Below are positions 1 to 22,311 of a DNA stretch of 64,000 nt, piece after piece. A program made the translations under genes and the position numbers. Source of the stretch: a bacterium (GTDB lineage: Bacteria; Desulfobacterota; Deferrisomatia; Deferrisomatales; Deferrisomataceae). Location: assembly GCA_027021615.1 (NCBI GenBank), contig JALUTY010000107.1, forward strand, positions 1-64,000, given 5' to 3'. Under the pieces are notes generated by a model that did not search any database, was not told the DNA's origin, and worked only from the letters and a program-made list of their open reading frames with translations. How positions within the stretch are numbered: the stretch's first letter is position 1; the number at the start of each line of letters is the position of its first letter.

Positions 1-405
1 AGCGCAAAACCCGCTCTCCCCTGGCCATGATGAACACTTGACGCTATGCTCATCCACCCCAGCGTCGCTTCGCGCCGCTACCGTTCGGCTTGCCCGGATT
101 CGGTGTTCACTTTCAGCGGAATACGCACCCATCCGCGGCGCCCCCATCAAAGCACGGTGGAGGGGGTAGAGCGTGTGCCGCTCCAGGATCTCGAGCGGAG
201 TGAGTCCCGCGGGCCCGGCGAGCAGGCAGGCAAACCGCTCCATTCCCCGGCCGTCCCACTCGCCGAGCGACCGGCACCGCGCGCCCCATAGGCGCTCGCC
301 GGTGTACTGCTCTCGTGGCAACTGGGCCAGGATGTGGTATCGGATCGCCACACTGTGGAGCATTTCGCCGGGCGCCGGCACCGGCACCGGCAATCCCAGG
401 CTCAC
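1..405 (-). CDS. tniQ: Second TniQ/TnsD-family target-selection protein (N-terminal part, cut by window edge)
   Basis: An open frame begins with GTG at 405-403, overlapping the tnsD stop codon as GTGA, and stays open for 135 codons to the window edge. It aligns by eye with the N-terminus of the neighbouring TnsD: a PGE...RYHILA block matches PDE...RYQVLA, and LTPLEILERHTLYPLHRAL matches LTAVEIIERHTHLPYYRPF. That block is typical of the TniQ domain, which couples a target-recognition factor to the TnsC ATPase ring. The C-terminus, and hence the target recognised, is not visible. A second TniQ beside TnsD is found in some type I-B CRISPR-associated transposons but also in elements without CRISPR, so function is open. 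Homology is fairly sure; role is inference. Confidence 0.75.
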   Translation of the reverse strand, partial: MSLGLPVPVPAPGEMLHSVAIRYHILAQLPREQYTGERLWGARCRSLGEWDGRGMERFACLLAGPAGLTPLEILERHTLYPLHRALMGAPRMGAYSAESEHRIRASRTVAARSDAGVDEHSVKCSSWPGESGFCA

Positions 406-2372
406 CGTGACGCTCCCGTGTCGGCTGGCCCAAGCACGCCCGGTATGGCCATCTGGCCGGCCGCTTCCCGGATCGCGGCGCGAACACGCGCCGTCGGGGC
501 ACACCCGATGCCGGCGAGCCGCTGGATTCGCCAGGCGGCCGGCGGGATCCCTTGCCTCACGAGCTCTTCTCGGGCCCACTCGATCCGGCGGATCTGGTAC
601 TCCTCAACGGTTTCAACGACCTTCTCCAGAGCCAGTTCCGTCCGCGGAAGCTTGTCGAGCCGGTGCTGCAGCAGAGTCAGCGCCCCTATCATCCTACCTA
701 CCGTAGACGGGCTGACCCGTATCGGCCGGCCCGGGCGAGTGCGGATGGCGTCGGCCGCCTCGATGACCTGCTGCGCCAGCTCCCGATCGCGGCAAGCCCA
801 GTCCACCCGGGTAGCGGGGGGAGACGGGGCCACGGGACCAGGGGAATGGGCCCGGAGCCAGTCCCGGTCGTGCCGGTAGAGCCAGGAGTAGGCCGCGGGC
901 ACCCGGCGGCGGATCTCTGTGGCTGACGCTTCCGGGTGGGATTCCCGGGCCGCGCTATAATCTGAGCGATGTCGGTGTCTGGCTCGGCGAAAAAGGGAAT
1001 AGCGGCGTCGGTAGGAGATCTGCGGGTGGGCCCGCAGTATTCTCGTAAGGTGCGAGCGAGAAAACCGGGTAGCAGCGAGGATGTCCTCCATCGGTGCCCC
1101 ATGTCGCAGCAGGCGCTGCGCCCGGCGCTCGTCGGCCGGACGGTGTTGCGTCGGACGCCTCCTCCCAAAGGGAATTCCGTACCGGGCGGCATAGACACTC
1201 AGGGTAGTGACGCTCGTGCCCAGGACCTGCGCAGCGCTGCGGAGGGATCGCCCCTCGGCCACCAAGAGATGCCGCAGGAGCGCCGGATCAACGCGGGGGG
1301 TCCCGTCTCCCCTGTCCGGCGGCGCGGGAGGCGGCGCGGAGCACGGCACAGCGGCCCGATCGAGCTCTCGAAGAAATGCTTCCCAATCCCCGAAAAGGAA
1401 CGCGATAAGGAGGATGTGTTGGAATGGGTGCCCCCGTCGCCTCGCCCCCCTCGCGAGGGTGGCCAGCCAGGTTTGGTCACACGTCGTGAGCATCCCCAAA
1501 AGTCTGCCGTACGGGGACACAGACGATACGGCCCGGTAGTGGTGCTGGAACGCGTCCCTCAAGGCGGCTTGCCGTACCTGCCCCGCCGGGGTGATCCAGC
1601 CGCGACGCTCGAATGCGACGCGATAGGCCTGCCGGATTCGCGCACACGGCAGGCTGGGCGTGGCCGACCACAGGATGTCGCGGCTGATGCAAGCGGTGGC
1701 CAGGAGACGGCGGAACGCTCCGTCACCGAGCCCCGCAGCCAGATCGGTGTAATGCCGGTCCTCCACGGGCTCCGCGGGCGGCAGCGAGAACCCGTGCCGC
1801 GCCGGGGCGTCCAGGGGCCGGTTCAGCTGCCTGAGGCCGATCCTGTGGTCCGCGCAAACGAGCACGCCCGGGAGCTGATGCTGACGATGCCAGTACGCCA
1901 CGCCGTAGCACTCGATATCCGCAGATCGACACGCGGGGCAGTAGCGGAGCGGATCTGCGGCCCCCACCCGGCCAGCGAGTAGACCCCCCACAGCCTTTGG
2001 GGCGGCCCTACTACGTCCTAACATGGCCCGTTTCATGCGGGCCACCGTTGCGGAGCCTCGAAATGGGCGGTAGTAGGGGAGGTGGGTATGGCGTTCGATT
2101 ATCTCGACGGCTGTAAGGCCAATATCCGGCGGTAGACGATCGGCGAGAAGACCTACGTACGTGGGGAGATTTGAGGAAGTCACCGGCATCCCGCGGCCGA
2201 ACAATGCGCGGAGGCTCTCCCGCGCGGAGCAGTGCACGGCGAGGACCTGGTAACGAGCGCACATTCCCATCACAGTTTCATCCGGCAGCGCGGTCGGGAA
2301 GTGCGTTAGCGCGAGCAGGTGTTGCTGTACCATTGGCATTCGCCGCAGGCTGGGGAGGACCCTATAGGTCAT
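402..2372 (-). CDS. tnsD: TnsD, site-specific target selector (TniQ family, 656 aa)
   Basis: TnsD binds the 3' end of glmS in the canonical system and recruits TnsC and the TnsAB transposase to attTn7. The N-terminal TniQ domain (about residues 25-180) carries a zinc ribbon with CPAC (145-148) and CADH (173-176). The C-terminal half has helix-turn-helix-like segments and the TnsD-type block with AYSWLYRHDRDWL followed by VDWACRD, characteristic of long TnsD proteins rather than short TniQ. The length is somewhat above the 508 aa of Tn7 TnsD. The start overlaps the tnsC stop by 11 nt; an ATG 11 or 13 codons further in is possible. The location of the element next to glmS fits homing by this protein. 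Confidence 0.9.
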   Translation of the reverse strand: MTYRVLPSLRRMPMVQQHLLALTHFPTALPDETVMGMCARYQVLAVHCSARESLRALFGRGMPVTSSNLPTYVGLLADRLPPDIGLTAVEIIERHTHLPYYRPFRGSATVARMKRAMLGRSRAAPKAVGGLLAGRVGAADPLRYCPACRSADIECYGVAYWHRQHQLPGVLVCADHRIGLRQLNRPLDAPARHGFSLPPAEPVEDRHYTDLAAGLGDGAFRRLLATACISRDILWSATPSLPCARIRQAYRVAFERRGWITPAGQVRQAALRDAFQHHYRAVSSVSPYGRLLGMLTTCDQTWLATLARGARRRGHPFQHILLIAFLFGDWEAFLRELDRAAVPCSAPPPAPPDRGDGTPRVDPALLRHLLVAEGRSLRSAAQVLGTSVTTLSVYAARYGIPFGRRRPTQHRPADERRAQRLLRHGAPMEDILAATRFSRSHLTRILRAHPQISYRRRYSLFRRARHRHRSDYSAARESHPEASATEIRRRVPAAYSWLYRHDRDWLRAHSPGPVAPSPPATRVDWACRDRELAQQVIEAADAIRTRPGRPIRVSPSTVGRMIGALTLLQHRLDKLPRTELALEKVVETVEEYQIRRIEWAREELVRQGIPPAAWRIQRLAGIGCAPTARVRAAIREAAGQMAIPGVLGPADTGASR

Positions 2373-3825
2373 CCAGGTCAGCGATCAGGCCCTGACGGCC
2401 CAGGGCGCCGTGCGGGTCCTCAGTCTTTTGTGCTTCTACGATGGCGTGGTCCGGATCCATGTGTGGTGCGGGCAAATCGTCCCCGGGGCCGCCATCCCGA
2501 CCTTCGGTATTGGTTTGCGGGCGGAGCACCTCGCCGGCCCCCTGTTCGCCAGAGGAACGCTGCCCGCCGGCCAACGGCACCGCCCAGTCTCTCCACCCCA
2601 CGGGCGGGGCAATATCCGGATAGTGTTGCATAGCGACCGGATCGCCCAACCGGAGTGCCTCCAGCTGCGCGCGGATCGGCTTTCCCTGCGTCGCCCCAGC
2701 GGCTGCCAAGTCCCGGTGCGACAGCGTCGCCGCGCCTGTCTCGATCGCCCACCGCTGCGCCCGGATGAACGTCCGCACGGCGAGATCAATGATCCCCTGG
2801 GACATGTCGTACAGGGTGTCGGCAATCTCCACGCTAAAAGGATCTTGACCCTCTATCAATTGCAGACGCCACAGTTGCTGTGCAAATGCCTTCCAGGCTT
2901 TAGAACCCCTCTCGTGTCGTTTAAACTCCACAAATCCAGCGTCCATCATCCTGCGACTGACTTGAAATTCGCCCATCAAAATTCTGGCTAGCCCGTATGT
3001 TCCAACAAAAACAATGGGGACGCCCACAACATTCACCATTGATCTTAGAAATGCCAAAAATTGCTTCGCGCCGCCCGTCCTTGCCAAGCTCAAATTCTGC
3101 AGTTCATCAACGACCAAGATCCCTAAGTTCAGCACTCTTGCCAATCGTCCCATCTGTATTTGCAGGTTTTCTGTCGAGCGGCGCGCGGAACCATACTGGT
3201 CGAGGTAATTTGTACCGATTGCGTTGTCGACGGCCTGAAAAAATTGGAGACACAGGTCCTTCCTTGACGCGTTCGCGGGACAATCCACGTGGAGCCAAAC
3301 GACTTGCACACTATTAAGCTTTTGGCCATTATATTCGCGATGCCTTATGACCTGCGGATACGTTGCTAAAACTCTCCGGATTGCCGTTGTTTTTCCGCAC
3401 CCACTGGCCCCTATTACAAGGCAACTACCGGCAGTTGTGCTGGTTTGCACGGGCGACCAGTCAATATTCTCCCCGCACAACTGATAGGTAAAACGAACCG
3501 CATTGGGGTCCATAATGTTTCTGGTCGCGTAACCTCTTCGAATCGCCCGCCCTAGATCAATATACAGCTGAATGCATTCGTAGAACGGAACGTATAGATC
3601 CTTCGCCCGATCGACCAACATCAATCGCTCCGTGGGACTCCGCAACCGATCGGCCGGATCCTGCGACACGGGCCGGTACAGCGCCCGTCGGGCATCGTCC
3701 GCCTCCAGCACCAGCGGCAACGCCTCAATGAGCGGGTTCCCGGCAGTCTCAGGTATCTCGGCCGGTCGGTATTCCGCCACCGGTATGCGCCCCGCTAGGC
3801 CCCGATCCCGATCATTCGTCGTCAT
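2362..3825 (-). CDS. tnsC: TnsC, AAA+ transposition regulator ATPase
   Basis: TnsC forms an ATP-dependent filament or ring on target DNA that links TniQ/TnsD to TnsAB. The 487-aa protein has Walker A GASGCGKTT at residues 139-147 and Walker B LGILVVDELQNL ending at D240-E241, as in the TnsC/TniB group. The start codon overlaps the tnsB stop (ATGA), implying translational coupling. The tail runs into tnsD. Its base composition is less GC-rich than the chromosomal genes further right, in keeping with horizontal origin. No inactivating change is visible. Confidence 0.92.
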   Translation of the reverse strand: MTTNDRDRGLAGRIPVAEYRPAEIPETAGNPLIEALPLVLEADDARRALYRPVSQDPADRLRSPTERLMLVDRAKDLYVPFYECIQLYIDLGRAIRRGYATRNIMDPNAVRFTYQLCGENIDWSPVQTSTTAGSCLVIGASGCGKTTAIRRVLATYPQVIRHREYNGQKLNSVQVVWLHVDCPANASRKDLCLQFFQAVDNAIGTNYLDQYGSARRSTENLQIQMGRLARVLNLGILVVDELQNLSLARTGGAKQFLAFLRSMVNVVGVPIVFVGTYGLARILMGEFQVSRRMMDAGFVEFKRHERGSKAWKAFAQQLWRLQLIEGQDPFSVEIADTLYDMSQGIIDLAVRTFIRAQRWAIETGAATLSHRDLAAAGATQGKPIRAQLEALRLGDPVAMQHYPDIAPPVGWRDWAVPLAGGQRSSGEQGAGEVLRPQTNTEGRDGGPGDDLPAPHMDPDHAIVEAQKTEDPHGALGRQGLIADLDDL

Positions 3826-6002
3826 TTTTTAACTCCTCGTGGCCTTGCTAGGAATTCACATAACGCGTCTCCGTCGAGGTCGCGTAGTTGGCTCTCAATG
3901 GATGTATCCGCTGGCGACTTTGTGTGGACACAGTCAATTCCATCCGTAAACTCACCGGTCGCCAGACGCCGGGCTTCCGCTCTTCTGTTTTCCCGGATGT
4001 TTTTTAGCATCTCTTTGTCGTCACGCCCGCTTGCTTTCGCCTCTTTTATGGCATTGTTCACGATATCCGCGACGCTTTTGTCAAGATCTATGGCGCTCTC
4101 TAAGGCGCGTGAGGCTCTGTTTTCCGCCGGTGCCTTCTCTCTTGCACGCGCATCTAGTATCTCTTCAACTGGCAGTCCACGATATTTATCCGCGTCTGGA
4201 TTGCACACTTCGCACGGTTCGAATCGATTGATTTCTGTCTGCACCCAAACATGGTCTGTGTTCGCCGGATCGTAACGAATTTCTATTTTTCGTCGCCCTT
4301 TCTGCCGAGCAATGGCACGCCAGTTTTCCGCCGCCTCCGTAGCACACGAATATCTCCGTCCATGCCACACAATTCCAGACTCCGTAATTGACGCCATTTC
4401 ACGAGGCAATAGGTGCCGGTAGACCAGTTGAGAATCCACAGCACGAAGCGTGCCTGTGATATTCTTGAGACCCCACCTCCACAAAGCTATGGGAGTCGGG
4501 GGAACATTGGCGGCTAACATTTCCTGAGTGAGGAGGTCCGGGTATTCGTGGTGGTGGTTGTGATACAGAATCAACCGGCAAATGATATTCCCGACTTCTC
4601 TAATATTGAGGGTCGCATCAAGGCGGTAATCCCGCTCGCCTCGTTCACGGTGCCTCTTTTTAACGGCCCCCGGGAGAAAATGAATAACACCTTCTTGTAA
4701 GGTGCGGAAGCGAGATTCTACAACACCTTTCCAATCCGCCCGAAAAGGCGGGCAGTTTTCGACGGTAATACCGAGCCCCATAATCATGTCATCTGCTTTT
4801 TCTCCCCTCAGTTCGCCATTATCAACTAATATACTGCTGGGCAGCACTTCGCATGGCCAATCTTCCTCAGATATCGTTATGCCGTACTCTTTGCACAGGT
4901 CTACCTTGTTGCGAAATGCATTATACACGGCGATCCGTGCCGTGTTCCAACTCGGCCCCTCTAACGCCAAGTGGAATCCAAGAATTAGTCTTGAGAAGAC
5001 GTCGATAATTACATACAGGATGGCTCTGCCGATAGGAATTTGCCGAGACAGAAGGCTCGTTAAGTAAAGATCCAAAGTCGTGCTGTCCATTTCCGCCCGA
5101 TCACCGGGCCCGACTACGCCATCGACTGCACGACCTCGGAGTCCTCGACCCTTGAGCGCCCACTTTCGGGGTCCCTGGCGCGCTTTGCGCGTTTCTGGGT
5201 CCTCTGTGTGTTGCTGCGCCCAATAATAGAACTGACCGTAGGTGGGGCGGTTTTTGTGGAGCACCCTTCTTGTGTTTCCATTTTCGTCGATAATTTGTTC
5301 CGAAAAGAATTGTTCTATCATTCTCCGGTATACGAATTGAAGCGACCGTCCGTCGGCGGTTCGGTACCAGCGGTCAATGGACACGGCGATAATTTGGCGT
5401 ATCTCATCGGTTACATTCGTTCCCACGTTTTTCGGGTCTTCACCGTTGGATACGCATTGACGCGGTCGGCCTCTTTTTTTCGCTCCCGATGATTTCCTTT
5501 TTCCGCGCCCTCCACAAGCCAGATAGTTGTTCTGTAGCGCCGCCGGAATAGAGCCGTATTTCCAGTATCGGAAAAGCCATCTCTTGATCTTTTTTTTCGA
5601 AACTCCCGTACGAGCGGACGCAGCAGCAATTTTTTTTGAGAGGGACCCTTGGACGAAAATCCATTCACGCAAGGGCTGGCTTGTAATATCTGCGATGGAG
5701 TCGAGCCTATCTTGTATGAAGTTACGTTGTTCGTCGCTTATGTCGCAAAATAAATAGGCTGGCAGTTCGTAACGGACGATTGTGGCCAGTCCGGAGGAAA
5801 GCATGTTCGTCAGTTGGCTTAGGGGAAAATTCAAAGGGTTGCGAGTAGAGTCTCTCGATGGGTCTACTTCAAACAACGCGGCAAGGTCGAGCGTACCGTC
5901 AATCGCGAGAATTCTGTAGCACCGCTCCCTCATACCAGGATCGTCATACTCTGGCGCGATCAACACGACAGCGTTTTCTTCGAGTTTCGGTTTCACGGAC
6001 AT
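3822..6002 (-). CDS. tnsB: TnsB, DDE transposase of Tn7-like element
   Basis: TnsB binds the transposon-end repeats and performs 3'-end cleavage and strand transfer. The 726-aa protein has an N-terminal DNA-binding half, a retroviral-integrase-fold core and a Mu-type C-terminal beta-barrel region. Candidate catalytic residues are D306 (in EMDSTT), D394 (in ILVDNGEL) and E429 (in KGVVESR); the spacing of the last two is close to DD35E. It overlaps tnsC by 4 nt and is separated from tnsA by 7 nt, so tnsA-B-C-D-tniQ looks like one operon. The gene is clearly less GC-rich than the host genes. The 20-bp repeats at 20378-20457 are its likely binding sites. Confidence 0.93.
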   Translation of the reverse strand: MSVKPKLEENAVVLIAPEYDDPGMRERCYRILAIDGTLDLAALFEVDPSRDSTRNPLNFPLSQLTNMLSSGLATIVRYELPAYLFCDISDEQRNFIQDRLDSIADITSQPLREWIFVQGSLSKKIAAASARTGVSKKKIKRWLFRYWKYGSIPAALQNNYLACGGRGKRKSSGAKKRGRPRQCVSNGEDPKNVGTNVTDEIRQIIAVSIDRWYRTADGRSLQFVYRRMIEQFFSEQIIDENGNTRRVLHKNRPTYGQFYYWAQQHTEDPETRKARQGPRKWALKGRGLRGRAVDGVVGPGDRAEMDSTTLDLYLTSLLSRQIPIGRAILYVIIDVFSRLILGFHLALEGPSWNTARIAVYNAFRNKVDLCKEYGITISEEDWPCEVLPSSILVDNGELRGEKADDMIMGLGITVENCPPFRADWKGVVESRFRTLQEGVIHFLPGAVKKRHRERGERDYRLDATLNIREVGNIICRLILYHNHHHEYPDLLTQEMLAANVPPTPIALWRWGLKNITGTLRAVDSQLVYRHLLPREMASITESGIVWHGRRYSCATEAAENWRAIARQKGRRKIEIRYDPANTDHVWVQTEINRFEPCEVCNPDADKYRGLPVEEILDARAREKAPAENRASRALESAIDLDKSVADIVNNAIKEAKASGRDDKEMLKNIRENRRAEARRLATGEFTDGIDCVHTKSPADTSIESQLRDLDGDALCEFLARPRGVKK

Positions 6003-6009: not shown

Positions 6010-6957
6010 TCATTTCTCGCTCGCCAAAGCCCAAGGTAAGGGGTACGGAAGCCCTACGCGGCGAGAGAGATTCAGAGGAAGGTGGCCGTGCCAGATGGCG
6101 TGGCGAGCGAGTGACACGGCCTGAGCCTCGGGGAGGCTGCATGTACGGGCAACCGAGAGGATGACGCGCCGGAAGGGGGTGGTTGTGTCCGCTCGGTAGT
6201 CGAGGATCGCGTTCAGAAACCGCTCGTACCCGCGCTCTGAGATCCGGCGGGAAGGGTCGAGGACGGCGTCAATGCGGCACCAGTGGAGGGTCTGGCACCG
6301 ATAGCCGTGCGCAGCGAGGTCGCGGTCGGTAACGACTCGCCAGGCCACCCCATGATGGTGGCAGTACTGCCGATCGATCTCTTGAAGTTCGGCCACACGG
6401 GGGCGGGCGAGCTGTGCCGCGGGCTTCACGGACAGGGCAAGCTGCCGCTCTCGTTGCCCGTCTCGGAGTGTCACCAGAAAATCCACGGTGGGAACGTACG
6501 GAGGTCTCCCGCGGCTTTTTTTTCCGAGGAATGCGGGGCAACGAATCCCCAGATGCTTCGCGATGGCCCGTACCAGGCGCACGTCGATGAGCGGATACTG
6601 CTCGCGGACATCCGCCACGCCGGGATGGGACTCCAAAAGCAGAAACGTTCGGTATTCTAGGTCGGAGAGGAGGTGATGGATCCGTCCGGTACGGACGCCG
6701 CGCAGTGTCCGGCGCCGACCGCTACTGGGAACATGATGCTTCAAGAGCCATGGGCGATATTCTTTCTTGGCTCCGACGCCATGGCCTTTCGCTAAATGGC
6801 GCGCGACGTCCGGGGGCACCAGTATGGGGCGAGGACCTTCTAGCCGGTGCGGGTCAAGTGGAGCGTAGACCCACTCCGAGGTGGGGTCTGGATCTTTGGC
6901 GGGCGCAGGGCAAGAGGCCCCCTTGACACTCCCGGGGCGGGGTGCGATAGTGATCAT
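6010..6957 (-). CDS. tnsA: TnsA, heteromeric transposase endonuclease subunit
   Basis: TnsA cleaves the 5' strands at the transposon ends, making transposition cut-and-paste with TnsB. The 315-aa protein has the restriction-like catalytic set: E101 (in SDLEYRTF), D159 (in PTVDFLV) and K178 (in SVKP). A winged-helix C-terminal part follows, as in the 273-aa Tn7 TnsA. I chose the ATG at 6957 because an AGGA sits just upstream; an ATG at 7050 would add 31 residues of low-complexity sequence. It is the first gene of the tns operon and is divergent from the XRE regulator gene. The intact triad argues against a copy-and-paste element lacking TnsA activity. Confidence 0.88.
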   Translation of the reverse strand: MITIAPRPGSVKGASCPAPAKDPDPTSEWVYAPLDPHRLEGPRPILVPPDVARHLAKGHGVGAKKEYRPWLLKHHVPSSGRRRTLRGVRTGRIHHLLSDLEYRTFLLLESHPGVADVREQYPLIDVRLVRAIAKHLGIRCPAFLGKKSRGRPPYVPTVDFLVTLRDGQRERQLALSVKPAAQLARPRVAELQEIDRQYCHHHGVAWRVVTDRDLAAHGYRCQTLHWCRIDAVLDPSRRISERGYERFLNAILDYRADTTTPFRRVILSVARTCSLPEAQAVSLARHAIWHGHLPLNLSRRVGLPYPLPWALASEK

Positions 6958-7310
6958 GCAGCAATCCTTTTGTTTGCGGGCCTCGGGGCTGCCTCCCCGG
7001 GGCCCGCTGCGTATATGGCTTTCCTCTAGTAGTTCTCCTCCCGCGCGCATATCCGACTCGCCCGACGAGGCCGTCGGGTCACGCTACGCCAGCCAGCATA
7101 GCCCCCCGATCCCGGGGCGTCAACCCGTTCGGGGGCAAAATAATCTCCGACGAGCTGAGGCGTCTCGATCCGTCAGGGTGAGAGTTCCTGTGTATGGTAC
7201 AATATCTTACACCGGCCTCAGGATGGCACCTTGCGAACAAAGCCATATGGGTATATGCTATTACCCCGAATGGGTTGATTCCCTCGCGGGCGACCATGTA
7301 ACCCTTTAAT
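6958..7310. promoter_or_regulatory. Divergent intergenic region between tnsA and xre, with a long-range inverted repeat
   Basis: This 353-bp gap holds no gene. CAACCCGTTCGGGG at 7121-7134 and its inverted near-copy CCCCGAATGGGTTG at 7264-7277 match at 13 of 14 positions, 129 bp apart. They flank the space where both divergent promoters must lie, so they are candidate operators for the XRE protein or sites for a transposition protein. The TGTC-type 20-bp repeats found at the glmS-side end are absent here, so this does not look like the transposon end. No clear sigma70 promoter was identified. Confidence 0.4.
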
Positions 7311-7796
7311 ATGGAAACGAAAATGGCCGTAGGCGATCGACTGAAGGCTCTTCGCGGAAACGAGTCTGTCCAGAATTTCGCGGACCGGTTGGGTGTGCAT
7401 CCGAACACAATCCGCCGGTACGAGGCGGGCGAAAGAGACCCTGACACCGCGTTCCTTCTCCGCCTCTGGTCCCTGCTTCGGGTGCGCCCAGACTGGGTCG
7501 TCACGGGCGAAGGGGAAATGTTCGCACCGGCGGCTCGAGCGTTGTCGGCTTCACCGGAGGAAGATGGCCAGGAACTGTCGGAGCGGCAAAAGGCCGCCCT
7601 TCACTTTTGCACGGTGCTTCTCCGGAGCGAAAAGCTCCACAAGAGCTACCGCGTCGCTTCCCTCTCCGACTCGCGAGAACTCACGCTCACCCCGACGGAA
7701 CGGCGACTCCTCCAGGGATTCCATGCCGCGTCCGCCGCGAAGAAACGCCTGCTCATGGAACTCGCCGAAGAGGAGATCCGAGGCCCCGAGGACTGA
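7311..7796 (+). CDS. XRE-family (CI-like) transcriptional regulator
   Basis: The 161-aa protein has an N-terminal helix-turn-helix at about residues 8-62 (GDRLKALRGNESVQNFADRL, then HPNTIRRYEAGERDPD) typical of Cro/CI-type repressors. The C-terminal half is charged and shows no recognisable peptidase or sensor domain. Two start codons are possible (7311 and 7323). It is divergent from tnsA and probably controls the tns operon, itself, or both; regulators in this position occur in several Tn7-like and CRISPR-associated transposons. Directly after its stop the sequence becomes a truncated IS1634-type transposase, marking a rearrangement junction. Confidence 0.75.
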   Translation: METKMAVGDRLKALRGNESVQNFADRLGVHPNTIRRYEAGERDPDTAFLLRLWSLLRVRPDWVVTGEGEMFAPAARALSASPEEDGQELSERQKAALHFCTVLLRSEKLHKSYRVASLSDSRELTLTPTERRLLQGFHAASAAKKRLLMELAEEEIRGPED

Positions 7797-7800
7797 GCCG

Positions 7801-9193: not shown

Positions 9194-9343
9194 TGTCACG
9201 GATCGCCCTAATGGAGCCACCCATGATCGGCGTAATGGAGCCAGTTTGGGGGTGCCATGATCGGGCTAATGGAGCCGGGTCATGATCGGCGTAATGGAGC
9301 CACTCAGACCGGCCTGCCTCAGAGGGTCCCGGCGGTGTTGACC

Positions 9344-10126
9344 CTACCCCTTCCGACGCGTCGAGGCAACGGCCTCCCGGGGGGCGTCGTCCGGCAGGGG
9401 GCGGGGTGAGCGGTAGCTCTGGCCTTCCAGGACGATCCGGTAGGCGCCGTGGCGGATCCGGTCGATGGTGGCGGCCCCCAGCAGGCGGTTGGGGAAGGCC
9501 TGGCCCCACTCGCCCAGGTCGAGGTTGCTGGTGAGGATGGTGGAGGCGCGCTCGTAGCGTTCGTTCATGAGGTCGTGGAAGTCCTCGTCCTGGGGTGGGC
9601 GCAGGGGTTTGAGGCCGAAGTCGTCGATGATGAGCAGATCGACCCGTGCCAGGGCGGCGAAGCGGCGTTCGTAGGTATCGGTGGCCCGGGCGGCATGGAG
9701 CGAGCCCAGGAGCTTAGAGGCGGAGGTAAACAGCACATCGTGGCCCTGGCGGATGGCGCAGTGGCCGATGGCCTGGGCGAGATGGCTTTTGCCGGTGCCG
9801 GTGGGGCCGACGATGAGGACACAGACCTTTTCGTGGAGGAAGCGGCAGGTGGCGACATCGAGGATGAGAGCCTTGTTGACGCCGGGGTTGAAGGCGAAAT
9901 CGAAGTTCTCGATGGTCTTCTCGCCGCGGAATCCGGCACGCCGGAACCGAAGGGCGAGCTTTTTGTGCTCGCGGCGGGCGATCTCGTCCTGGATGAGCAG
10001 GGAGAGGAACTCGGTGTAGGAGAGCTGATGCTCCACGGCCTGACGGTTTCGGGCCTCGAGGGAGTCGAGGATGCCGGAGAGGCGAAGCTGCTTGAGCAAG
10101 GGGGCGAGCTGAGGCATGGGGTTCAT
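9344..10126 (-). CDS. istB: IstB, IS21-family helper ATPase
   Basis: IstB is the AAA+ helper that remodels target DNA and stimulates the IstA transposase. The 260-aa protein has Walker A GPTGTGKSHLA and Walker B LLIIDDFG, with the DnaC-like fold typical of the family. The start is the ATG at 10126, preceded by GGAG; a longer frame upstream is GC-rich read-through. It follows istA by 61 nt. The length matches the family norm and no damage is visible. Confidence 0.95.
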   Translation of the reverse strand: MNPMPQLAPLLKQLRLSGILDSLEARNRQAVEHQLSYTEFLSLLIQDEIARREHKKLALRFRRAGFRGEKTIENFDFAFNPGVNKALILDVATCRFLHEKVCVLIVGPTGTGKSHLAQAIGHCAIRQGHDVLFTSASKLLGSLHAARATDTYERRFAALARVDLLIIDDFGLKPLRPPQDEDFHDLMNERYERASTILTSNLDLGEWGQAFPNRLLGAATIDRIRHGAYRIVLEGQSYRSPRPLPDDAPREAVASTRRKG

Positions 10127-10187
10127 GGGTTCGTCTCCGTTGAGTGGAGGGGTGGAAGAGGAACAGGCTCCGCAGTGAGGCGGCACC

Positions 10188-11774
10188 TCAGTGGGGTTCG
10201 CCGGGTCCGGGCCGCTGGGGTGCCGGGGGTGGATCCCACAGGCGCAGTTGGGTGGCATCCCGGCAGAAGCGACCCTTGCCGGTGTAGGCCTCGGCAAGCG
10301 CGGAGGGCTCGGCCGGTTCGGGCTGTTGATCGAGGCCTTTTTGGAGGATGGTCTTCACGGTGCGGTAGCGGGGGTCGTCGAAGCGAAGGGCGCGGCGGCA
10401 GGCGGCCTCCAGGCGTTCGGGCCCGAAGCGCTGGGCCAGGCGGATCACCCCCTGGGCGGCACGGAGGTTGTCGAGGACCCGGTGGGCGAACAGGCGCTCG
10501 ATGAGCTCGTGGGTGGCGGGCCCCAGGGAGCGGGCCTTCTTGAGGCACCACTGGGGATCTTGCATCCAGTAGGCCACCGCCTCCGGGGGGAGGTGATCGG
10601 CAACCGTGGAGCGCTCGCCGGGGCGAGCCAGCCGAGGGTGGGAGGCGACGAGCTCGTGGTCGAGGTAGAGCTCCACGGTCGAGGGGGTGGCGCGCAGCCA
10701 CAGCGTCTGGCGCACGAGGCGAAAGGGGGCGGAGTAGTAAGCCTTCTCGAACGTGACGTGGCAGTTGCCGTGGAGCTTCACGCGGGTCCACACGCCGATG
10801 ATGGGGGGCACGTCAGGAAGGGGGCGAAGCACGTGGCGCTCCACCTCGGCGAACCGGGTGAGGGGCCGCTCGTGGGTGGTGCCGTGGAGGCGGTTTCCGG
10901 CGGTGGAGCGGATCCACTCGTGGATCTGGCGGTTGGCGTCGGCCAAGGAGCGGAACTCGCGCAGCGGCAGAAACGAACGCTTGATGTACTTCACCCCCGA
11001 CTCCACCCGGCCCTTCTTCTTGGGGTCCTGGACGGGACAGGGGGCGATGAGGAACCCGTAGCCCTCGGCCAGCTCGGCGTAGGAGCGCTGGACCTCGGGA
11101 TCGTGGTAGCAGGCGCGCACGATGGCGCACTTGGCGTTGTCGATGATGATCCGGGCGGGAACGCCGCCGAACCACTCGAAGGCGCGGCGGTGGCAGGCGA
11201 GCCAGGTGGAGACCTTCTGGTCGGGGACGACCTCGGCGTACTGATGGCGGCTCCAGGCAAGGGTCATCACGAAGACCCAGGTGGACTGGGGCTCGCCGGT
11301 GAGGGGATGGGGGATCGTGGGCCCCTTGCCGAAGTCGACCTGGGCGGCCTCTGCGGGGGCGAACTCCAACATCACGGTGGCCTGGGGGTTGGCCTTACGG
11401 ATCCCCCGCACGAAGCGGCGCACCGAAGAGTAGTGTCCAGTATAGCCGTGCTTTCGGCACAGGGCCTCGTGGATGGTGGTGCCCTGGATGCCGAGTTCGA
11501 TCCAGCGGGTGATCTCGTCGCGGTAGCGCTCGAGGGAGGACCCGGCCCGCGGGGTGGCCCGCCCGGTGGAGCCGAGGGCCTGGGCGATGGCGGCCTCGTC
11601 GGGCACGGGGGAGTCGGGATCGAGCCAGCCGTTCTGGACGGCGAGTTCCCGGAAGGAGCTGGCCTTGGCGCGGCCCATGAGGCCGGCCTTGGCGATCTTG
11701 CGGTTGGACTCGCCGAGCCGCATGCGAACGAGGACGTTTCGGTACTGGTGCATCTCGAACCTCCGGTTGGCCAT
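10188..11774 (-). CDS. istA: IstA, IS21-family DDE transposase
   Basis: IstA excises and integrates the element. The 528-aa protein begins with MANRRFEMHQYRNVLVRMRL, the helix-turn-helix part of the family, followed by the integrase core with D in EAAQVDFGKGP, D in ARIIIDNAKC and E in KKGRVESGVKY. The C-terminal part is the usual IS21 extension. AGGAG precedes the ATG at 11774. Length and motifs are normal, so the gene appears functional. Confidence 0.95.
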   Translation of the reverse strand: MANRRFEMHQYRNVLVRMRLGESNRKIAKAGLMGRAKASSFRELAVQNGWLDPDSPVPDEAAIAQALGSTGRATPRAGSSLERYRDEITRWIELGIQGTTIHEALCRKHGYTGHYSSVRRFVRGIRKANPQATVMLEFAPAEAAQVDFGKGPTIPHPLTGEPQSTWVFVMTLAWSRHQYAEVVPDQKVSTWLACHRRAFEWFGGVPARIIIDNAKCAIVRACYHDPEVQRSYAELAEGYGFLIAPCPVQDPKKKGRVESGVKYIKRSFLPLREFRSLADANRQIHEWIRSTAGNRLHGTTHERPLTRFAEVERHVLRPLPDVPPIIGVWTRVKLHGNCHVTFEKAYYSAPFRLVRQTLWLRATPSTVELYLDHELVASHPRLARPGERSTVADHLPPEAVAYWMQDPQWCLKKARSLGPATHELIERLFAHRVLDNLRAAQGVIRLAQRFGPERLEAACRRALRFDDPRYRTVKTILQKGLDQQPEPAEPSALAEAYTGKGRFCRDATQLRLWDPPPAPQRPGPGEPH

Positions 11775-13173: not shown

Positions 13174-13407
13174 ATGAGATATGGAAGCCTGATCCAGTTC
13201 GAGCCTATCGAGTCCGTAGTCCAGCTACGGGATGTCGATGAGGCCACAAGCGCCAGAGATCTGGTGAGCACCGGAGACATCTACGCACCCCTGGGGGCCA
13301 CGGCCGAAGATCTGCGCGACGCGCTCTGCCTCTACCAGCCCGGCATCGAGGACCTGGGCGGAGACCCGGTCGATAGTTTTCCTTCGTTGGCGGAGTTGGC
13401 GGCATGA
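13174..13407 (+). pseudogene. Internally deleted remnant of a DUF6079 (PglY-like) phage-resistance ATPase
   Basis: The 77-aa frame begins [20 protein letters not shown], which resembles the N-terminus of the large DUF6079 ATPases found with BREX-like phage-resistance systems. It then jumps to [20 protein letters not shown] and [10 protein letters not shown], which I recall from much further along the same family. The Walker motifs between them are gone, so an in-frame deletion is likely. Its stop overlaps the hsdR start (ATGA), so it may now serve as a translated leader that couples hsdR expression. Recognition is from memory of the family, not a search. Confidence 0.55.
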
Positions 13408-16064
13408 GAAACGAAGCCGACACCCGGGCGACCCTCATCGACCCGAAGCTGAAAGCCGCAGGTTGGACTGACACCCAGATCACCCGGGAGCACTACTACC
13501 AACGAGATCACCAGTACACCCAGGGCCGGGTCATCTTGGTGGGGGACCGAGTCCGGAGAGGAGAAGCCCGGAAGGTGGACTATCTCCTTCGGCTGTCGGA
13601 CGCCTTCCCGATCGCCGTCGTGGAAGCAAAGGCCGAGTCGGAGCAGGCAGAGGCAGGACTCGAGCAGGCGAAGCGCTATGCAAAGGATCTTGGGCTCGCC
13701 TTCGCCTATGCCACGAACGGTCACAAGATCATCGAGTTCGACTTCTTCACCAACTCCAGCCGGGAGATCGAACGGTTTCCCTCGCCTGACGACTTATGGA
13801 GCCGATGGCGGCAAAATGCTAGTCCAGTGGACGCCCTCGGCGTCGCTGAACCCGCCGCTGAATACGGCGCGGACAAGCGGTCCAACCCGCTCCTCCATCC
13901 ATACTGCCCCGAAACAGTGTGCGGGAGGAAGCCTTTCTACTACCAGGAGGTCGCGATCCGCGAGGTGGTAAAGCGGCTCGTGCTGGGCCGGAAACGAGTC
14001 CTCCTCACCATGGCCACGGGCACAGGGAAGACATTTGTCGCGTTTCAGGTGGTCTGGAAGCTCGTTAAGTCCGGCTGGCTTCAGAGGTTTCATCCGGAGC
14101 GTCCTGGCCGTTTGCTCTTTCTCGCCGACCGCGTGGTGTTGCGCGACCAAGCCTACAATACCTTCGCCCCGTTCGCGGATGGAACCAGTGAGCCGCGCTT
14201 CAAGATCGAAGGCCACCCACCGAACCTGAACCGGGATCTTTACTTCGGCATTTATCAGACGCTATGGAGCCCGGACGCGGAAGGGCGGCGTCTCTTTGAG
14301 AAGTTCCCTCCGGACTTCTTTGACTTCGTCATCATCGACGAGTGCCATCGTTCGGGCTTCGGGACCTGGAGGGAGATCCTTGATCACTTTGGTTCGGCTA
14401 TCCATCTCGGAATGACGGCGACACCCAAACAGGACGAGAACATCGACACCTATGCCTATTTCTGTACGGAAGAGTCCGAAGTGGCCATCGACCCCGAGGA
14501 CCCGGAACGAGGCACCTGGCGGCCGCCCGCCTACCAGTACAGCCTAGGGCGCGGCATCGAGGACGGCTTCCTGGCAAGCTACAAGGTCCACCGGGTGCGC
14601 ACAACGGTGGACGCCACGGGCCTGCATCTCGAAGATGCGGTGGAGCAGGGCGCCGAGGTCTTCATCCCCGAGGACGTGGATCCTCGCGAGTTCTACACCA
14701 CGCCCCAGTTCGAGCGGGAGATCACGCTGCCCGACCGAACGTGCGCCATGGTTAAACACCTGGCCGGGCTTCTCCGCCGCTTCGGGAAGATGGAAAAAAC
14801 CATGGTCTTCTGCGTGGACATGGAGCATGCCCGGCTGGCGGCGCGACTGCTCCAGGACGAGTTCGGCCCGGAGACCGGCTTCTCCAACTACGCTGTGCCC
14901 ATTATCTCGGAAGAGGGCGAAGAGGGGCGGCGGGCGCTCGAGGCCTTTGCCGATTCGGACAAGCCGGCACCTGTTGTGGCCACGACGGCGGAACTCCTCT
15001 CTACCGGAGTGGACGTGCCTTCCTGCCGCAACATCGTTTTCATGAAGACCCTTTCTTCCCCCATTCTCTTCAAGCAGATCATCGGCCGCGGCAGCCGGCT
15101 CGACCCCGGAACGGATAAGTACTGGTTCCGCATCATCGACTACACGGGGGCGACAAGGCTCTTCGACGAATGGGATCGTCCCCCGGTTCCTTCTCCTCAG
15201 CCTCCACCAGGCCCGCAGACTGCCACCCTTGAAGGAACGGTGCGCCACGCCGAAACCGAAGACCTCATTGTGGCAGCCAAAGTCAGCGTCCGCACCGGGC
15301 CAAACAGCCAGCAAGGCCCTATTGTGACCGACGAAAACGGTCGCTTCCGCTTCGAGAGGCTTCCGGCCGGCAAGCTCCAGCTTATCGTGAGCGCGCCCGG
15401 TTTTGCCGGCCGCACCATCGGAGTCGAGACGGTTGCGGACGAAACCACGGAAGTGGACGTGCTGCTGAAGCCAGCTAGGAAGAAGGGCGGCAAGATCCGC
15501 GTCGAAGGTCTGGAAGTGACCGTCGCCGACGAGGCGGTCTTCGTCATCGAGGCCACCGGCGAGCAACTCACCCTCCAGCAGTATCGGGACTACACGCGCC
15601 GAAGCATCCTTGAGCGCGCGCCCACACGCCGCGATCTGCGCGCCGTTTGGGTGGATAGCGCCCGCCGGCGCGCCTTCCTCGAGGAACTTCACAGATCCAG
15701 CATCCATCCGGAGGTGCTCGCCGAGGTCCTCGGACAATCCGAAGCCGACGCCCTTGATCTCCTCTGCCATATCGCCTTCGGCAGCCCCATCCGCACCCGG
15801 AGCGAACGGGCCGAGGCCTTCCGAAACCGCGAGCAGGGCTTCATCCAGCAGCACGCCGAAGGTGCCCGTCGGGTCATCCTGGAGCTTTTGGAGAAGTATC
15901 GCGTCGGCGGCATAGATGAGCTCGAACCGGAGATCTTCGGCGTGGCACCCTTCCGTGAGTGGGGCGGCGCCGCTCGCATCAGCCAATGGTTCGGCGGCGC
16001 TGCGAAGCTTGGAATCTCCCTGAATGAAATGAGACAACGCATCTACCCCGAGGAGGCTGCTTGA
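13404..16064 (+). CDS. hsdR: Type I restriction endonuclease R subunit (EcoEI-like) with an inserted beta-sandwich domain
   Basis: HsdR is the ATP-dependent translocase and nuclease of a type I restriction system. The 886-aa protein has an N-terminal nuclease domain with the PD-(D/E)xK-like pair D in KVDYLL and EAK in AVVEAKAE. A superfamily 2 helicase core follows, with TGTGKT (about residue 205), DECH (about 310), GMTATP and QIIGRGSR. It ends with an EcoEI-type C-terminal domain. Unusually, residues about 605-685 look like a carboxypeptidase-regulatory-like beta-sandwich (LEGTVRHAE..., [18 protein letters not shown]), a domain normally of secreted proteins. The start overlaps the preceding remnant and the stop overlaps hsdM (TGATG). 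Confidence 0.92.
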
Positions 16065-17563
16065 TGAACGGCCCCCAGACCCGCGAGACCCTTGCCAACG
16101 AGATCTGGCGCGCCTGCGACATTCTGCGCCGCGACAACAACTGCGGCGGCGTCATGGAGTACGTGGAGCATCTCGCTTGGCTTCTTTTCCTGCGTTTCCT
16201 CGATGCTCAGGAAGACGAGTGGGAGACCCAGGCCCAGCTCGCCGGGCGCGGCTACACGCGCATTCTGGACGGCGAGCTCCGCTGGAGCGCCTGGGCGGCC
16301 AAGGATTGGCCCGCGGACCGGCTTCTCGAGTTCGTGCACGGACGGCTGATCCCGTATCTCCAGAGCCTGGCGGGCGATCCGCTCCGCGAAACCATTCGCA
16401 GCGTTTTCGCCGAACGCAACGTGATCGTCTGCGCCTCCGGCTACAACCTCAAGGAAGTCCTCGAGATCATCAGTGGCATCGACTTTCACAGCCAAGACGA
16501 CATCTTCACAGTGTCCCAGGTTTACGAAGAGCTGCTCCGCCGCCTCGGCAACGAGAACCGCATGGCCGGCGAGTTCTACACCCCGCGGCCCGTGGTGCGT
16601 TTCGTGGTGGAAGTCGTGGCGCCGAAGATCGGCGAGACGGTTTACGACCCGGCCTGCGGCTCCTGCGGCTTCCTTGCCCAGGCCTACCTCTTCATGAAGA
16701 AAAACGAGCGGACCATCGAAGACCACAGGGCGCTTCAGGAAAAAACCTTCTTCGGCCAGGAAAAGAAGCCGCTTCCTGCCCTGCTGGGCCTCATGAACAT
16801 GGTTCTGCACGGCGTCACCGCCCCGCGCATCGTCCGCCGCAACACGCTGGAGGAGAATATCCGACAGGTGAGCGAACGTTTCGATGTCGTGCTCACCAAT
16901 CCTCCCTTCGGAGGCAAAGAAGGCCGGCACATCCAGGCCAACTTCCCGGTCCAGGCCACGGCTACAGAGCTCCTCTTCCTCCAGCACATCATGAAGAAGC
17001 TCAAGAACCATGAGGGCGCCCGCTGCGGCATGGTGGTTCCGGAAGGGACGCTCTTTCGCGGCGGTGCCTTCGCCGCGGTCAAGCAGGACCTGCTGGAGCA
17101 GTTCCACCTTCATACCGTCGTGAGCCTGCCGCCCGGCACCTTCTCGCCCTATTCGGACGTGAAGACCGCGCTCCTCTTTTTCGAGCGTCCGGGTCCGACA
17201 AAGGAGATCTGGTACTACGAGCTTTCGCTGCCCGAGAGGCTCAAGAAGTTCAGCAAGGGAAGCCCCATCCAGGACGAGCACTTCGCGAAGGCCCGTCGGC
17301 TGTGGAAGGCCTGGGACGCCTACCGCCAGGGTGAAGGTCCCCGCGAGGCCTGCCTTTCGGAGAACGCCTGGATCGTCCCGGCTGAGGAGATCAAGGAGCG
17401 CGGCTATGACCTCACCGCACGCAACCCCAACCGCAAGGAAACCGAAAACCTCCCGTCACCCATGGAGATTGTGGCGGGGCTTTTGGAGCGCGAGCGGGAG
17501 ATCCTGAGCATCGTGGAGGAGCTGGACGAGATGCTGGGCAACGGGGAGGCGAATAATGGCTGA
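16064..17563 (+). CDS. hsdM: Type I restriction-modification DNA methyltransferase M subunit
   Basis: HsdM methylates adenine in the HsdS-specified site, protecting host DNA. The 499-aa protein has the N-terminal helical HsdM domain, the S-adenosylmethionine motif YDPACGSCGF (about residue 195) and the catalytic NPPF motif in LTNPPFGGKEG (about 277), the latter diagnostic of N6-adenine methylation. GAGGAGG precedes the ATG, whose A is the last base of the hsdR stop codon. The gene overlaps hsdS by 8 nt. All motifs are intact, so the modification arm should be active. Confidence 0.96.
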   Translation: MNGPQTRETLANEIWRACDILRRDNNCGGVMEYVEHLAWLLFLRFLDAQEDEWETQAQLAGRGYTRILDGELRWSAWAAKDWPADRLLEFVHGRLIPYLQSLAGDPLRETIRSVFAERNVIVCASGYNLKEVLEIISGIDFHSQDDIFTVSQVYEELLRRLGNENRMAGEFYTPRPVVRFVVEVVAPKIGETVYDPACGSCGFLAQAYLFMKKNERTIEDHRALQEKTFFGQEKKPLPALLGLMNMVLHGVTAPRIVRRNTLEENIRQVSERFDVVLTNPPFGGKEGRHIQANFPVQATATELLFLQHIMKKLKNHEGARCGMVVPEGTLFRGGAFAAVKQDLLEQFHLHTVVSLPPGTFSPYSDVKTALLFFERPGPTKEIWYYELSLPERLKKFSKGSPIQDEHFAKARRLWKAWDAYRQGEGPREACLSENAWIVPAEEIKERGYDLTARNPNRKETENLPSPMEIVAGLLEREREILSIVEELDEMLGNGEANNG

Positions 17564-18797
17564 GGGTCCCTACAAGCTCCCCCCGGGCTGGCGTTGGGTG
17601 CGGTTGGGGGAGGTGTGCAGCATCAATCCGCGGCGTTCACGTCTTTCGAGGTGTCCGGAGGCGCCCACTACGTTTGTTCCAATGAGAGCCGTTGACGAGG
17701 AGACCGGGACCATCACGGGTGCCGAGATCCGGCCGTTCGCTCAGGTTCGGAAGGGCTACACTTATTTCCAAGAAGGGGATGTTCTTTTCGCCAAAATCAC
17801 TCCGTGCATGGAGAACGGTAAGTCAGCAATTGCGCGGAACCTTCTCGACGGCATTGGGTTCGGAACGACAGAGTTTCACGTCTTGAGGCCCACAGGAGAG
17901 GTCACTCCGGAATGGATATGGCTCTTCGTGCGAAGGGACGGTTTTCGGGCAACTGCCAAAGCGGCGTTCAGGGGTGGAGTTGGCCAACAGCGAGTGCCAG
18001 CGGAGTTCCTCCGAGAACACCCACTTCCCCTCCCCCCGCTCCCCGAACAGTGTCGCATCGTGGCGCGGATCGAGGCGCTGATGGAGCGCATCCGCGAGGC
18101 GTGGCGACTGCGCGAGGAAGCCCGCCAAGACGCCGACCGCCTCTGGCAGTCGGTCCTCGCCGACACCTTCCCCCGCCCCGGCTCCGAGCTCGCCCCGGGC
18201 TGGCGTTGGGTGCGGTTGGGGGAGGTGTGCAGCATCAATCCGCGGCGTTCACGTCTTTCGAGGTGTCCGGAGGCGCCCACTACGTTTGTTCCAATGAGAG
18301 CCGTTGACGAGGAGACCGGGACCATCACGGGTGCCGAGATCCGGCCGTTCGCTCAGGTTCGGAAGGGCTACACTTATTTCCAAGAAGGGGATGTTCTTTT
18401 CGCCAAAATCACTCCGTGCATGGAGAACGGTAAGTCAGCAATTGCGCGGAACCTTCTCGACGGCATTGGGTTCGGAACGACAGAGTTTCACGTCTTGAGG
18501 CCCACAGGAGAGGTCACTCCGGAATGGATATGGCTCTTCGTGCGAAGGGACGGTTTTCGGGCAACTGCCAAAGCGGCGTTCAGGGGTGGAGTTGGCCAAC
18601 AGCGAGTGCCAGCGGAGTTCCTCCGAGAACACCCACTTCCCCTCCCCCCGCTCCCCGAACAGTGTCGCATCGTGGCGCACCTGGAATCGGTGCGAGAGCG
18701 GGTGCAGGCGTTGAAGAATGTCCAAGAACACACCGAAGCCCACCTCAAGGAACTGGAACGCTCCATCCTGGACAAGGCCTTCCGCGGGGAGTTGTAA
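17556..18797 (+). CDS. hsdS: Type I restriction specificity subunit with two identical target-recognition domains
   Basis: HsdS sets DNA specificity through two target-recognition domains (TRDs), each reading half of a bipartite site. Here both TRDs are the same: 17581-18066 and 18193-18678 are identical over 486 bp. They are separated by a helical spacer (IVARIEALMERIREAWRLRE) and followed by a C-terminal helix (HLESVRERVQALKNVQEHTE). Natural HsdS proteins nearly always carry two different TRDs. With identical TRDs the pseudo-dyad arrangement predicts a palindromic interrupted target. The 413-aa length is normal. The event looks like recent gene conversion or duplication and would have changed specificity. 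Confidence 0.93.
   Translation: MAEGPYKLPPGWRWVRLGEVCSINPRRSRLSRCPEAPTTFVPMRAVDEETGTITGAEIRPFAQVRKGYTYFQEGDVLFAKITPCMENGKSAIARNLLDGIGFGTTEFHVLRPTGEVTPEWIWLFVRRDGFRATAKAAFRGGVGQQRVPAEFLREHPLPLPPLPEQCRIVARIEALMERIREAWRLREEARQDADRLWQSVLADTFPRPGSELAPGWRWVRLGEVCSINPRRSRLSRCPEAPTTFVPMRAVDEETGTITGAEIRPFAQVRKGYTYFQEGDVLFAKITPCMENGKSAIARNLLDGIGFGTTEFHVLRPTGEVTPEWIWLFVRRDGFRATAKAAFRGGVGQQRVPAEFLREHPLPLPPLPEQCRIVAHLESVRERVQALKNVQEHTEAHLKELERSILDKAFRGEL
17581..18678 (+). repeat. Perfect 486-bp direct repeat inside hsdS
   Basis: Copies at 17581-18066 and 18193-18678 are offset by 612 bp. They start at CCCCGGGCTGG and end at CATCGTGGCGC; flanking bases diverge at once on both sides. Perfect identity across 162 codons including third positions shows very recent duplication or gene conversion, or an assembly artefact. 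Confidence 0.95.
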
Positions 18798-18821: not shown

Positions 18822-19775
18822 ATGAAATCGCGGGCACGTAAGTTATTAGATAAATCTATCGCTGCGATGGTGGCTGCTATCGACGTGTACAACAAGCCTG
18901 ATTTTGCATATCGAGGGGAAGCTTTCACCATCCTGGCTCTGAACGCTTGGGAGCTCCTGCTCAAGGCAAAGTGGCTTCAGGACCACAATCACCGGGTACA
19001 GAGTCTCTATGTTCGGGAGAAGCCAGAGAAAAAGCGTCCTCGGTACAAGCGGACGCGCTCTGGCTCTTACCTGACTCATGGCGTTCAATACCTTGCGAGG
19101 AAACTTGCCGAGGAGGGCAAACTGGATTCAAGAGCGCTTAAGAATCTCGAAGCTCTTATGGAGTTACGAGATACATCAACCCATTTCTATCATCAATCAC
19201 CGGCACTGGATGAACGGGTCCTCGAAGTGGGAATGGCGTGTGTCAAAAACTTCGTTTCTGCCGTACACGACTGGTTTGACGAGGGTTTGGCCAGGTTTAA
19301 GTTTTATTTGATGCCGCTTTCATTTGTCACAGCATCCAGCTCGGAAGCAATTCGCCTCAACCGGGAGGAGGAAGCCTTTGTTCAGTTTCTCGACAGCCTC
19401 AACTCTGATCATACAGACCCTTCTGATCGCTACGCGGTGGCCGTCAATGTTGAGCTACGCTTCGTACGCTCGAAAGCCAGTTCAGCATATCCCGTGCGTG
19501 TCACGAAAGACCCTACGGCCCCTGCGGTTCGTTTAACCGAAGAACAGATTCGTGAGCAATACCCATGGGATTACCGGGAGCTAACGAAACGATGCCGGGA
19601 AAGATATAGGGGCTTCAAGGTGAACCAGAAGTATCACGAGATTCGAAAGCCTCTCCATGGCGATCAGCGCTTCGCACACGAGCGCCGACTGGATCCGGAA
19701 AAGCCCAGACCCAGGAAGATCTTTTATGCGCCTACCATCCTTGACGAACTCGATAGGCATTACGAAAAGAAGTGA
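18822..19775 (+). CDS. DUF3644-type protein of restriction/defence loci
   Basis: The 317-aa protein begins with SRARKLLDKSIAAMVAAIDV and FTILALNAWELLLKAKWL, the pattern of the DUF3644 family often found in type I restriction and phage-defence islands. The middle part (LEALMELRDTSTHFYHQ) resembles the conserved helix-turn block of that family. No catalytic residues can be assigned and biochemical function is unknown. It starts 24 nt after hsdS and may be co-transcribed with it. Its lower GC content than chromosomal genes fits cargo status. Confidence 0.7.
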   Translation: MKSRARKLLDKSIAAMVAAIDVYNKPDFAYRGEAFTILALNAWELLLKAKWLQDHNHRVQSLYVREKPEKKRPRYKRTRSGSYLTHGVQYLARKLAEEGKLDSRALKNLEALMELRDTSTHFYHQSPALDERVLEVGMACVKNFVSAVHDWFDEGLARFKFYLMPLSFVTASSSEAIRLNREEEAFVQFLDSLNSDHTDPSDRYAVAVNVELRFVRSKASSAYPVRVTKDPTAPAVRLTEEQIREQYPWDYRELTKRCRERYRGFKVNQKYHEIRKPLHGDQRFAHERRLDPEKPRPRKIFYAPTILDELDRHYEKK

Positions 19776-20345: not shown

Positions 20346-20457
20346 TTGGACAAACTTTTTTTGATAACCAAGAGTCGCATTAGGGGGGAGTTGGACACAC
20401 TTTTTTTGATTTGGACAGACTTTATTTTACTTGGACAGACTTTTTTTTAGATCGACA
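20346..20457. repeat. Tn7-like transposon end with tandem 20-bp TnsB-type sites
   Basis: Read inward from 20457 on the minus strand, three abutting 20-mers occur: TGTCGATCTAAAAAAAAGTC (20457-20438), TGTCCAAGTAAAATAAAGTC (20437-20418) and TGTCCAAATCAAAAAAAGTG (20417-20398). A degenerate fourth follows (20397-20378) and another copy is centred near 20355. The outermost base triplet is TGT, the terminal trinucleotide of Tn7-like elements, and abutting sites resemble the right end of Tn7. The tract is A/T-rich in a GC-rich genome. No matching copies were found near tnsA. Confidence 0.85.
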
Positions 20458-20481
20458 AGAGGTCAAGCGGCCGGTCGGCGG

Positions 20482-20484
<3 letters not shown>
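20458..20484. other. attTn7 junction downstream of glmS
   Basis: Exactly 24 nt separate the transposon terminus (20457) from the glmS stop codon (20484-20482). Tn7 inserts about 25 nt beyond glmS in many bacteria because TnsD reads the conserved glmS 3' end. The proximal five bases, AGAGG at 20458-20462, should recur outside the far end of the element as the target duplication. Confidence 0.85.

Positions 20485-22311
<1,827 letters not shown>

Follow-up and report, generated by a model that had tools for sequence, protein, structure and literature searches.

Does the pair of tandem target selectors at the left edge of the DNA analysed here belong to a CRISPR-associated transposon (CAST), or to a Tn7-like element that selects its targets by other means? 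The window (the whole stretch analysed, 64,000 nucleotides) is taken from contig C107, of which it forms the first 64 kb; the draft genome, from a bacterium of the Deferrisomataceae, has 134 contigs. The original prediction, made from the window alone, described a Tn7-like transposon with two tandem, coupled selectors that might be CRISPR-associated; the first part of this description is upheld by our analysis, whereas the second is not. We consider it probable that the locus is a dual TnsD/TniQ Tn7-like element at attTn7, in which TnsD directs insertion to glmS and the second selector, here called TniQ2, served a second, non-CRISPR route that is now disabled.

The transposition genes lie on the minus strand and are transcribed in the order tnsA, tnsB, tnsC, tnsD and tniQ2, with neighbouring genes overlapping or nearly touching, and a Tn7-like core of tnsA, tnsB, tnsC and a tniQ/tnsD gene is contained within one operon. 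The TnsA endonuclease (6010..7050; PF08722, 1e-13) is followed by a DDE transposase of 726 aa, TnsB (3822..6002; PF09299, 4e-8), with the invariant residues D306, D394 and E429, and by the AAA+ ATPase TnsC (2362..3825; PF13401, 1e-22; PF05621 TniB, 8e-17), whose Walker A motif reads GASGCGKT. TnsD (402..2372), a protein of 656 aa and the predicted glmS (attTn7) selector, combines a TniQ core (PF06527, E=2.5e-18) with a TnsD C-terminal domain (PF15978, E=3e-52) and matches the E. coli Tn7 TnsD structure 8glu at E=8e-16 (phmmer). TnsB is isolated: it shares 33–39% identity with its counterparts in the 80 best loci from GTDB species genomes and 30–39% with any relative found, and no other TnsB match at E<1e-100 was present among 395 sampled genomes of the phylum. 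The comparison covered 87 loci, 80 from genomes and 7 from plasmids. Two TniQ/TnsD matches occurred in 35 of the 87, some of these matches being gene fragments; clear tandem pairs were seen in Pseudomonas (TnsD-TnsD2), in Metabacillus (L085; open frames of 624 and 474 codons) and in Anabaena (L065).

The GTG-started frame at position 405 was originally described as translationally coupled to tnsD, and the two genes indeed share a GTGA overlap, with the tnsD stop TGA at 402-404 and the tniQ2 start GTG at 403-405. Only the 5' part of tniQ2 lies in the window (128..405, minus strand), where it matches PF06527 positions 3-101 (E=1.8e-5, just short of the curated cut-off). Because the window is the start of C107, its position 1 is a contig edge, and this edge falls within an insertion sequence (IS): positions 1..127 (minus strand; terminal inverted repeat TGCGTATTCCG...) are the end of an IS that interrupts tniQ2 and that had escaped the original prediction. 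Positions 10-129 are also the end of contig C6, at 100% identity, as expected of a repeat. The opposite IS end lies at positions 1-108 of contig C45 (locus L009; terminal inverted repeat TGCGTAATCCG). Both ends carry the terminal inverted repeat TGCGTA and are flanked by the 6-bp target site duplication (TSD) GATGGG, at 128..133 in the window and at 109-114 on C45. Judged by its termini, the IS is IS21-like; its body is absent from the assembly, and the join of C107 to C45 therefore rests on the continuity of the TSD, the reading frame and the domain profile. A further copy of the same IS end is present on contig C90; pairing C107 with C90 across the IS was ruled out, as the IS-adjacent flank of C90 lacks GATGGG.

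Across the empty site the tniQ2 frame is unbroken for ~398 codons and reads ...MGAPRMGFGELGHRMRYCPAC..., with its remainder at C45 110-1030 (plus strand). A TniQ profile search of this genome located the missing part of the domain, PF06527 positions 104-139, on C45. The concern that the frame might stop shortly past the window edge can thus be set aside, given that a gene of ~398 residues resumes on C45 after the IS. The operon accordingly encodes a second TniQ protein of ~398 aa beside the 656-aa TnsD. As to the predicted kinship of the two selectors, PF06527 matches both parts of the split gene, and the window's own TnsD is the best match of TniQ2 among all sequences compared, at 25–26% identity. 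TniQ2 lacks the TnsD C-terminal domain (no PF15978 match) and consists of the TniQ core and a short tail. An ortholog of TniQ2 was found nowhere that we searched: a single-sequence scan of 84,980 species genomes returned no relatives, plasmids gave distant N-terminal matches only, 99 relatives yielded next to nothing, and phmmer found no match in the PDB.

The boundaries of the element could be placed on both sides. TnsB-like sites are predicted in two arrays with the consensus GGACAAACTTTATTTT. The right end (20348..20457) carries four of them, at 20348, 20393, 20413 and 20433 (spacing 45/20/20), and terminates in ...GATCGACA. The left end, sought to the left of the window as the original prediction had advised, was found on C45, with sites at 13374, 13428 and 13609 and the terminus ...CGTCCACA at 13634; the sites span 20348-20448 on the right and C45 13374-13624 on the left. 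The 5-bp TSD AGAGG that follows the right end (20458..20462) also abuts the left end, at C45 13635-13639, where it reads CCTCT. Putative TnsB-site arrays, TGT...ACA termini and a 5-bp TSD together delimit a Tn7-like element of ~36 kb, made up of ~13.5 kb on C45, 20.3 kb in the window and the unassembled IS.

Next to the right end lies the host gene glmS (20482..22311, minus strand), which encodes a 609-aa protein with SIS and GATase domains and the C-terminus PRNLAKSVTVE; TnsD is predicted to bind at the 3' end of this gene, attTn7. The AGAGG duplication is 19 bp past the glmS stop codon, and the right end is proximal to glmS, the standard orientation. For Tn7 itself, the insertion point is ~20 bp past glmS, and TnsD binds positions +23 to +58, counted from the middle of the duplication (PMC2918618); here the glmS stop codon occupies +22 to +24. 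In the congeneric genome G002, GlmS is 99% identical and is followed by the same AGAGGTCAAGCGG, including AGAGG, without the end array of the element. From this position and from the family to which TnsD belongs, TnsD is predicted with high confidence to be a glmS-homing selector.

The same site holds a second set of Tn7-like sequences. At C45 13640-13735, another TnsB-like array in the opposite orientation (sites at 13645, 13665 and 13709; terminus TGTGCAGGG) faces the left end of the element across a single AGAGG. Its spacing of 20/44 resembles that of the right-end array, which points to an older Tn7-like element or a remnant of one that probably occupies the same attTn7. Beyond this array lie another type I hsdR and a YgjP-like gene; the far end of the presumed older element was not found on C45.

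With the element bounded, the CRISPR question can be addressed from its full gene content. No cas genes were found among the larger open reading frames of C45 110-13634 and window 128-20457, which were scanned or read, and searches for repeats across C45 1-20000 and window 130-20500 detected no CRISPR array. Over the part of the window covered, this agrees with the original statement that the window holds neither, and the left flank, on which the CRISPR link had depended, proved equally devoid of them. Genome-wide searches returned no match to Cas5 (PF09704), Cas7/DevR (PF01905) or Cas7 Csd2/Csh2 (PF05107), and none of the spacers tested convincingly matched the element. As a positive control, the I-B-type CAST of Calothrix (L097) was recovered with cas6-cas8a1-cas7-cas5 directly after a 330-codon tniQ, so that the scan was able to see a CAST where one is present.

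These results bear directly on the proposal that the element is a type I-B CAST, in which TnsD would home to glmS and TniQ2 would recruit a transposon-encoded Cascade. In its favour, the gene order tnsABC-tnsD-tniQ with a glmS-homing TnsD recalls I-B1 CASTs (PMC11406308), the size of TniQ2 fits, and a tree in which TniQ2 is constrained to group with CAST-like TniQ proteins (L097, L059), although 12.9 lnL units worse than the best tree, is not rejected (p-AU 0.18). However, the element as assembled is complete and has neither cas genes nor an array; the genome-wide searches gave no match to Cas5 or a type I Cas7, and tniQ2 is followed by two genes, orfX and orfY, where cas6-cas8-cas7-cas5 follow tniQ in L097. 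Structure prediction also leans the other way, although the model of the C-terminal 306 aa of TniQ2 is of low confidence (pLDDT 61): its top fold match is Tn7 TnsD 8glu (probability 0.99, yet E=0.04 and TM 0.37, a weak match), and the I-B CAST TniQ 8fcu scores far below it. The CAST identity was rejected on the full gene content and the genome-wide searches for Cas5 and type I Cas7, and we regard it as highly improbable.

The genome does carry CRISPR components elsewhere. Its sole cas locus found is of type III-B, at 1-15900 of contig C87 (L120), and encodes Cas10/Cmr2, Cmr3, Cmr5, Cmr6, a Csm6-type ring nuclease and Cas1; a Cas2 domain sits inside a larger frame, an array of 37-nt repeats adjoins the locus, and a second, partial Cas1 match lies at 10668-10880. 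On C90 (L128/L129), positions 26600-28204 hold an orphan array with 23 or more repeats (GTTTCAATCCACGCCCCCGCGCGGGGGGCGAC), which on our reading are type I-C-like; where the contig ends, this array is cut off by the IS that also splits tniQ2.

How, then, did the second selector arise, and did it ever function? In a tree of TniQ cores, TniQ2 sits on a very long branch, beside the window's own TnsD in the best tree, with a support of just 71/51. Tandem TniQ/TnsD loci are known and have mostly been attributed to in situ duplication (PMC10293859), and TniQ2 likewise probably arose by duplication of tnsD in place. One may ask whether the product was simply a decaying duplicate, in a lineage that only ever used TnsD at glmS. 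The long branch, the shortening of the segment that joins the helical domain to the zinc finger, the interruption by the IS and the lack of orthologs in our searches would all be compatible with decay. Against it, the frame, coupled to tnsD, was open from end to end before the IS inserted, and TniQ2 retains the zinc-finger ligands CxxC...CxxH together with other TniQ invariants; moreover, the perfect TSD of the IS suggests a recent insertion into a gene that was intact until then. We find decay without function doubtful, while granting it some weight.

Our preferred reading of a functional, dual-route element can be set out as follows. TnsD, through its C-terminal DNA-binding domain, would recognise the 3' end of glmS and recruit TnsC and the TnsAB transposase, which would yield insertion with the 5-bp AGAGG duplication. 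The probable duplicate of tnsD, TniQ2 (~398 aa), would have opened a second route without CRISPR, its most likely destination being plasmids or other mobile DNA; this target is proposed by analogy with the known two-pathway lifestyle, in which a chromosomal pathway is retained beside a plasmid pathway by most Tn7-like elements (PMC11406308). TniQ2 may have acted by means of its tail or together with a partner whose gene lies next to it. With tniQ2 split by one IS and an IS66 element lying between tniQ2 and the next gene, the glmS route alone would be left, and only this route should still work.

An alternative for the second route is that TniQ2 itself recognised the sequence of a different fixed site, on the chromosome or on a plasmid, in the manner of the Pseudomonas TnsD/TnsD2 pairs. 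Such tandem pairs are present in many Pseudomonas loci, and the best single-sequence matches of TniQ2 among the fetched loci are Pseudomonas TnsD/TnsD2 proteins. TniQ2, however, has no long TnsD-like C-terminal HTH region, whereas the second copies in Pseudomonas are ~544 aa in length, and we judge this alternative to be unlikely.

In one published model, a small TniQ bridges to a further selector (PMC10293859), and since the element contains no CRISPR system, the partner so bridged would be of another kind. By position, OrfX is the sole candidate, which we treat as a lead. Once the IS66 element is discounted, the ATG of orfX (C45 3496-4575, 359 aa) is found 18 nt beyond the tniQ2 stop codon and is preceded by GGGGAG, and the N-terminus of OrfX appears HTH-like by eye. 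OrfX has no Pfam or PHROG match and no relatives in plasmids, viral contigs or Tn7-like loci; one weak relative (E=7e-5), from the same phylum, was found among 395 genomes, beside F-type traI/traD. Its AlphaFold model is unusable (mean pLDDT 43). It is conceivable, if improbable, that TniQ2 and OrfX formed a new non-CRISPR target-selection module, in which DNA undergoing conjugation or replication would be marked by OrfX and TniQ2 would link OrfX to TnsC, much as TniQ bridges TnsF in Tn6022.

The cargo is rich in defence genes, as is typical of Tn7-like elements (PMC8649781). In the window, an HTH repressor-like gene of the RstR/DicA type (7311..7796, plus strand; PF13560/PF01381; NF041951, 2.4e-9) is succeeded, at 7797-8934, by a DDE transposase frame that overlaps the region of this gene and resembles an IS copy without its N-terminal part. 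An IS21-type IstB/IstA pair, assigned by reading the translation, has inserted inside the transposon (9344..11774, minus strand); short repeats with units of 22-24 nt (for example, CATGATCGGCGTAATGGAGCCA) flank it at 9198-9302 and 11858-11970 and are presumably its multiple transposase-binding repeats. A type I restriction-modification system follows on the plus strand (13404..18797), with hsdR at 13404-16064, hsdM at 16061-17563 and hsdS at 17556-18797. Within hsdS, a 300-bp direct repeat of 99% identity (17570-17869 and 18182-18481) suggests two near-identical specificity-subunit halves or a recent intragenic duplication. Next comes a DUF3644 gene for a candidate defence protein, PDC-S19 (18822..19775, plus strand; PF12358, 8.5e-49; PADLOC PDC-S19, 8.5e-122). 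Near the right end, a helicase fragment at 19815-20300 matches the middle of BrxHI-type helicases (PADLOC, 4e-71) and is probably a truncated defence gene. The left arm on C45 contains the IS66 element (1046-3484; 8-bp TSD GGAGAAAA), orfX, orfY, a Phd/YefM antitoxin-like gene, a DUF4143 fragment, a PrlF/MazE antitoxin-like gene, an FRG-domain gene and a complete type II CBASS operon (8437-12996) encoding a patatin-like phospholipase, a CD-NTase, an E1-E2 protein and a JAB protein.

Comparison with known systems places the element more precisely. It shares with E. coli Tn7 the proteins TnsA, TnsB, TnsC and a detectably related TnsD, insertion ~20 bp past glmS with the right end towards the gene and a 5-bp TSD, and TGT...ACA termini with arrays of TnsB-like sites; it differs in that no tnsE was recognised among the scanned open reading frames, the second TniQ standing in its place. 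Dual TniQ-TnsD Tn7-like elements have been described at 998 loci (Faure et al. 2023, PMC10293859), and, as in those, a larger TnsD is accompanied by a smaller tandem TniQ that probably arose by in situ duplication; the class does not require CRISPR. Unlike those, the present element represents an isolated lineage in its phylum, and its tniQ2 is interrupted by an IS. I-B1 CASTs (AvCAST, Tn7743 and the L097 example) resemble it in pairing a glmS-homing TnsD, a class assignment taken from the literature, with a TniQ of 300–400 aa, but encode cas6, cas8, cas7 and cas5 where it has orfX/orfY and no array. The Pseudomonas TnsD-TnsD2 loci (L019, L020 and L062 among others) also have two tandem selectors downstream of tnsABC, and L019 and L020 have no cas genes annotated, as in the element here; in contrast, both of their selectors are ~545–570 aa, whereas TniQ2 is ~398 aa and has no TnsD C-terminal domain.

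The element is thus a divergent addition to an already known class of dual-selector elements. As the suspected CAST proved to be a fully bounded element of an ordinary class, it should be kept off lists of CASTs. Its value is twofold: it adds a dual-selector Tn7-like element, divergent and heavily loaded with defence genes, from a phylum in which 395 sampled genomes yielded no other close TnsB, and it illustrates how two Tn7-like ends can be stacked at a single attTn7. If it were true that OrfX partners TniQ2, the pair would represent a new kind of selector.
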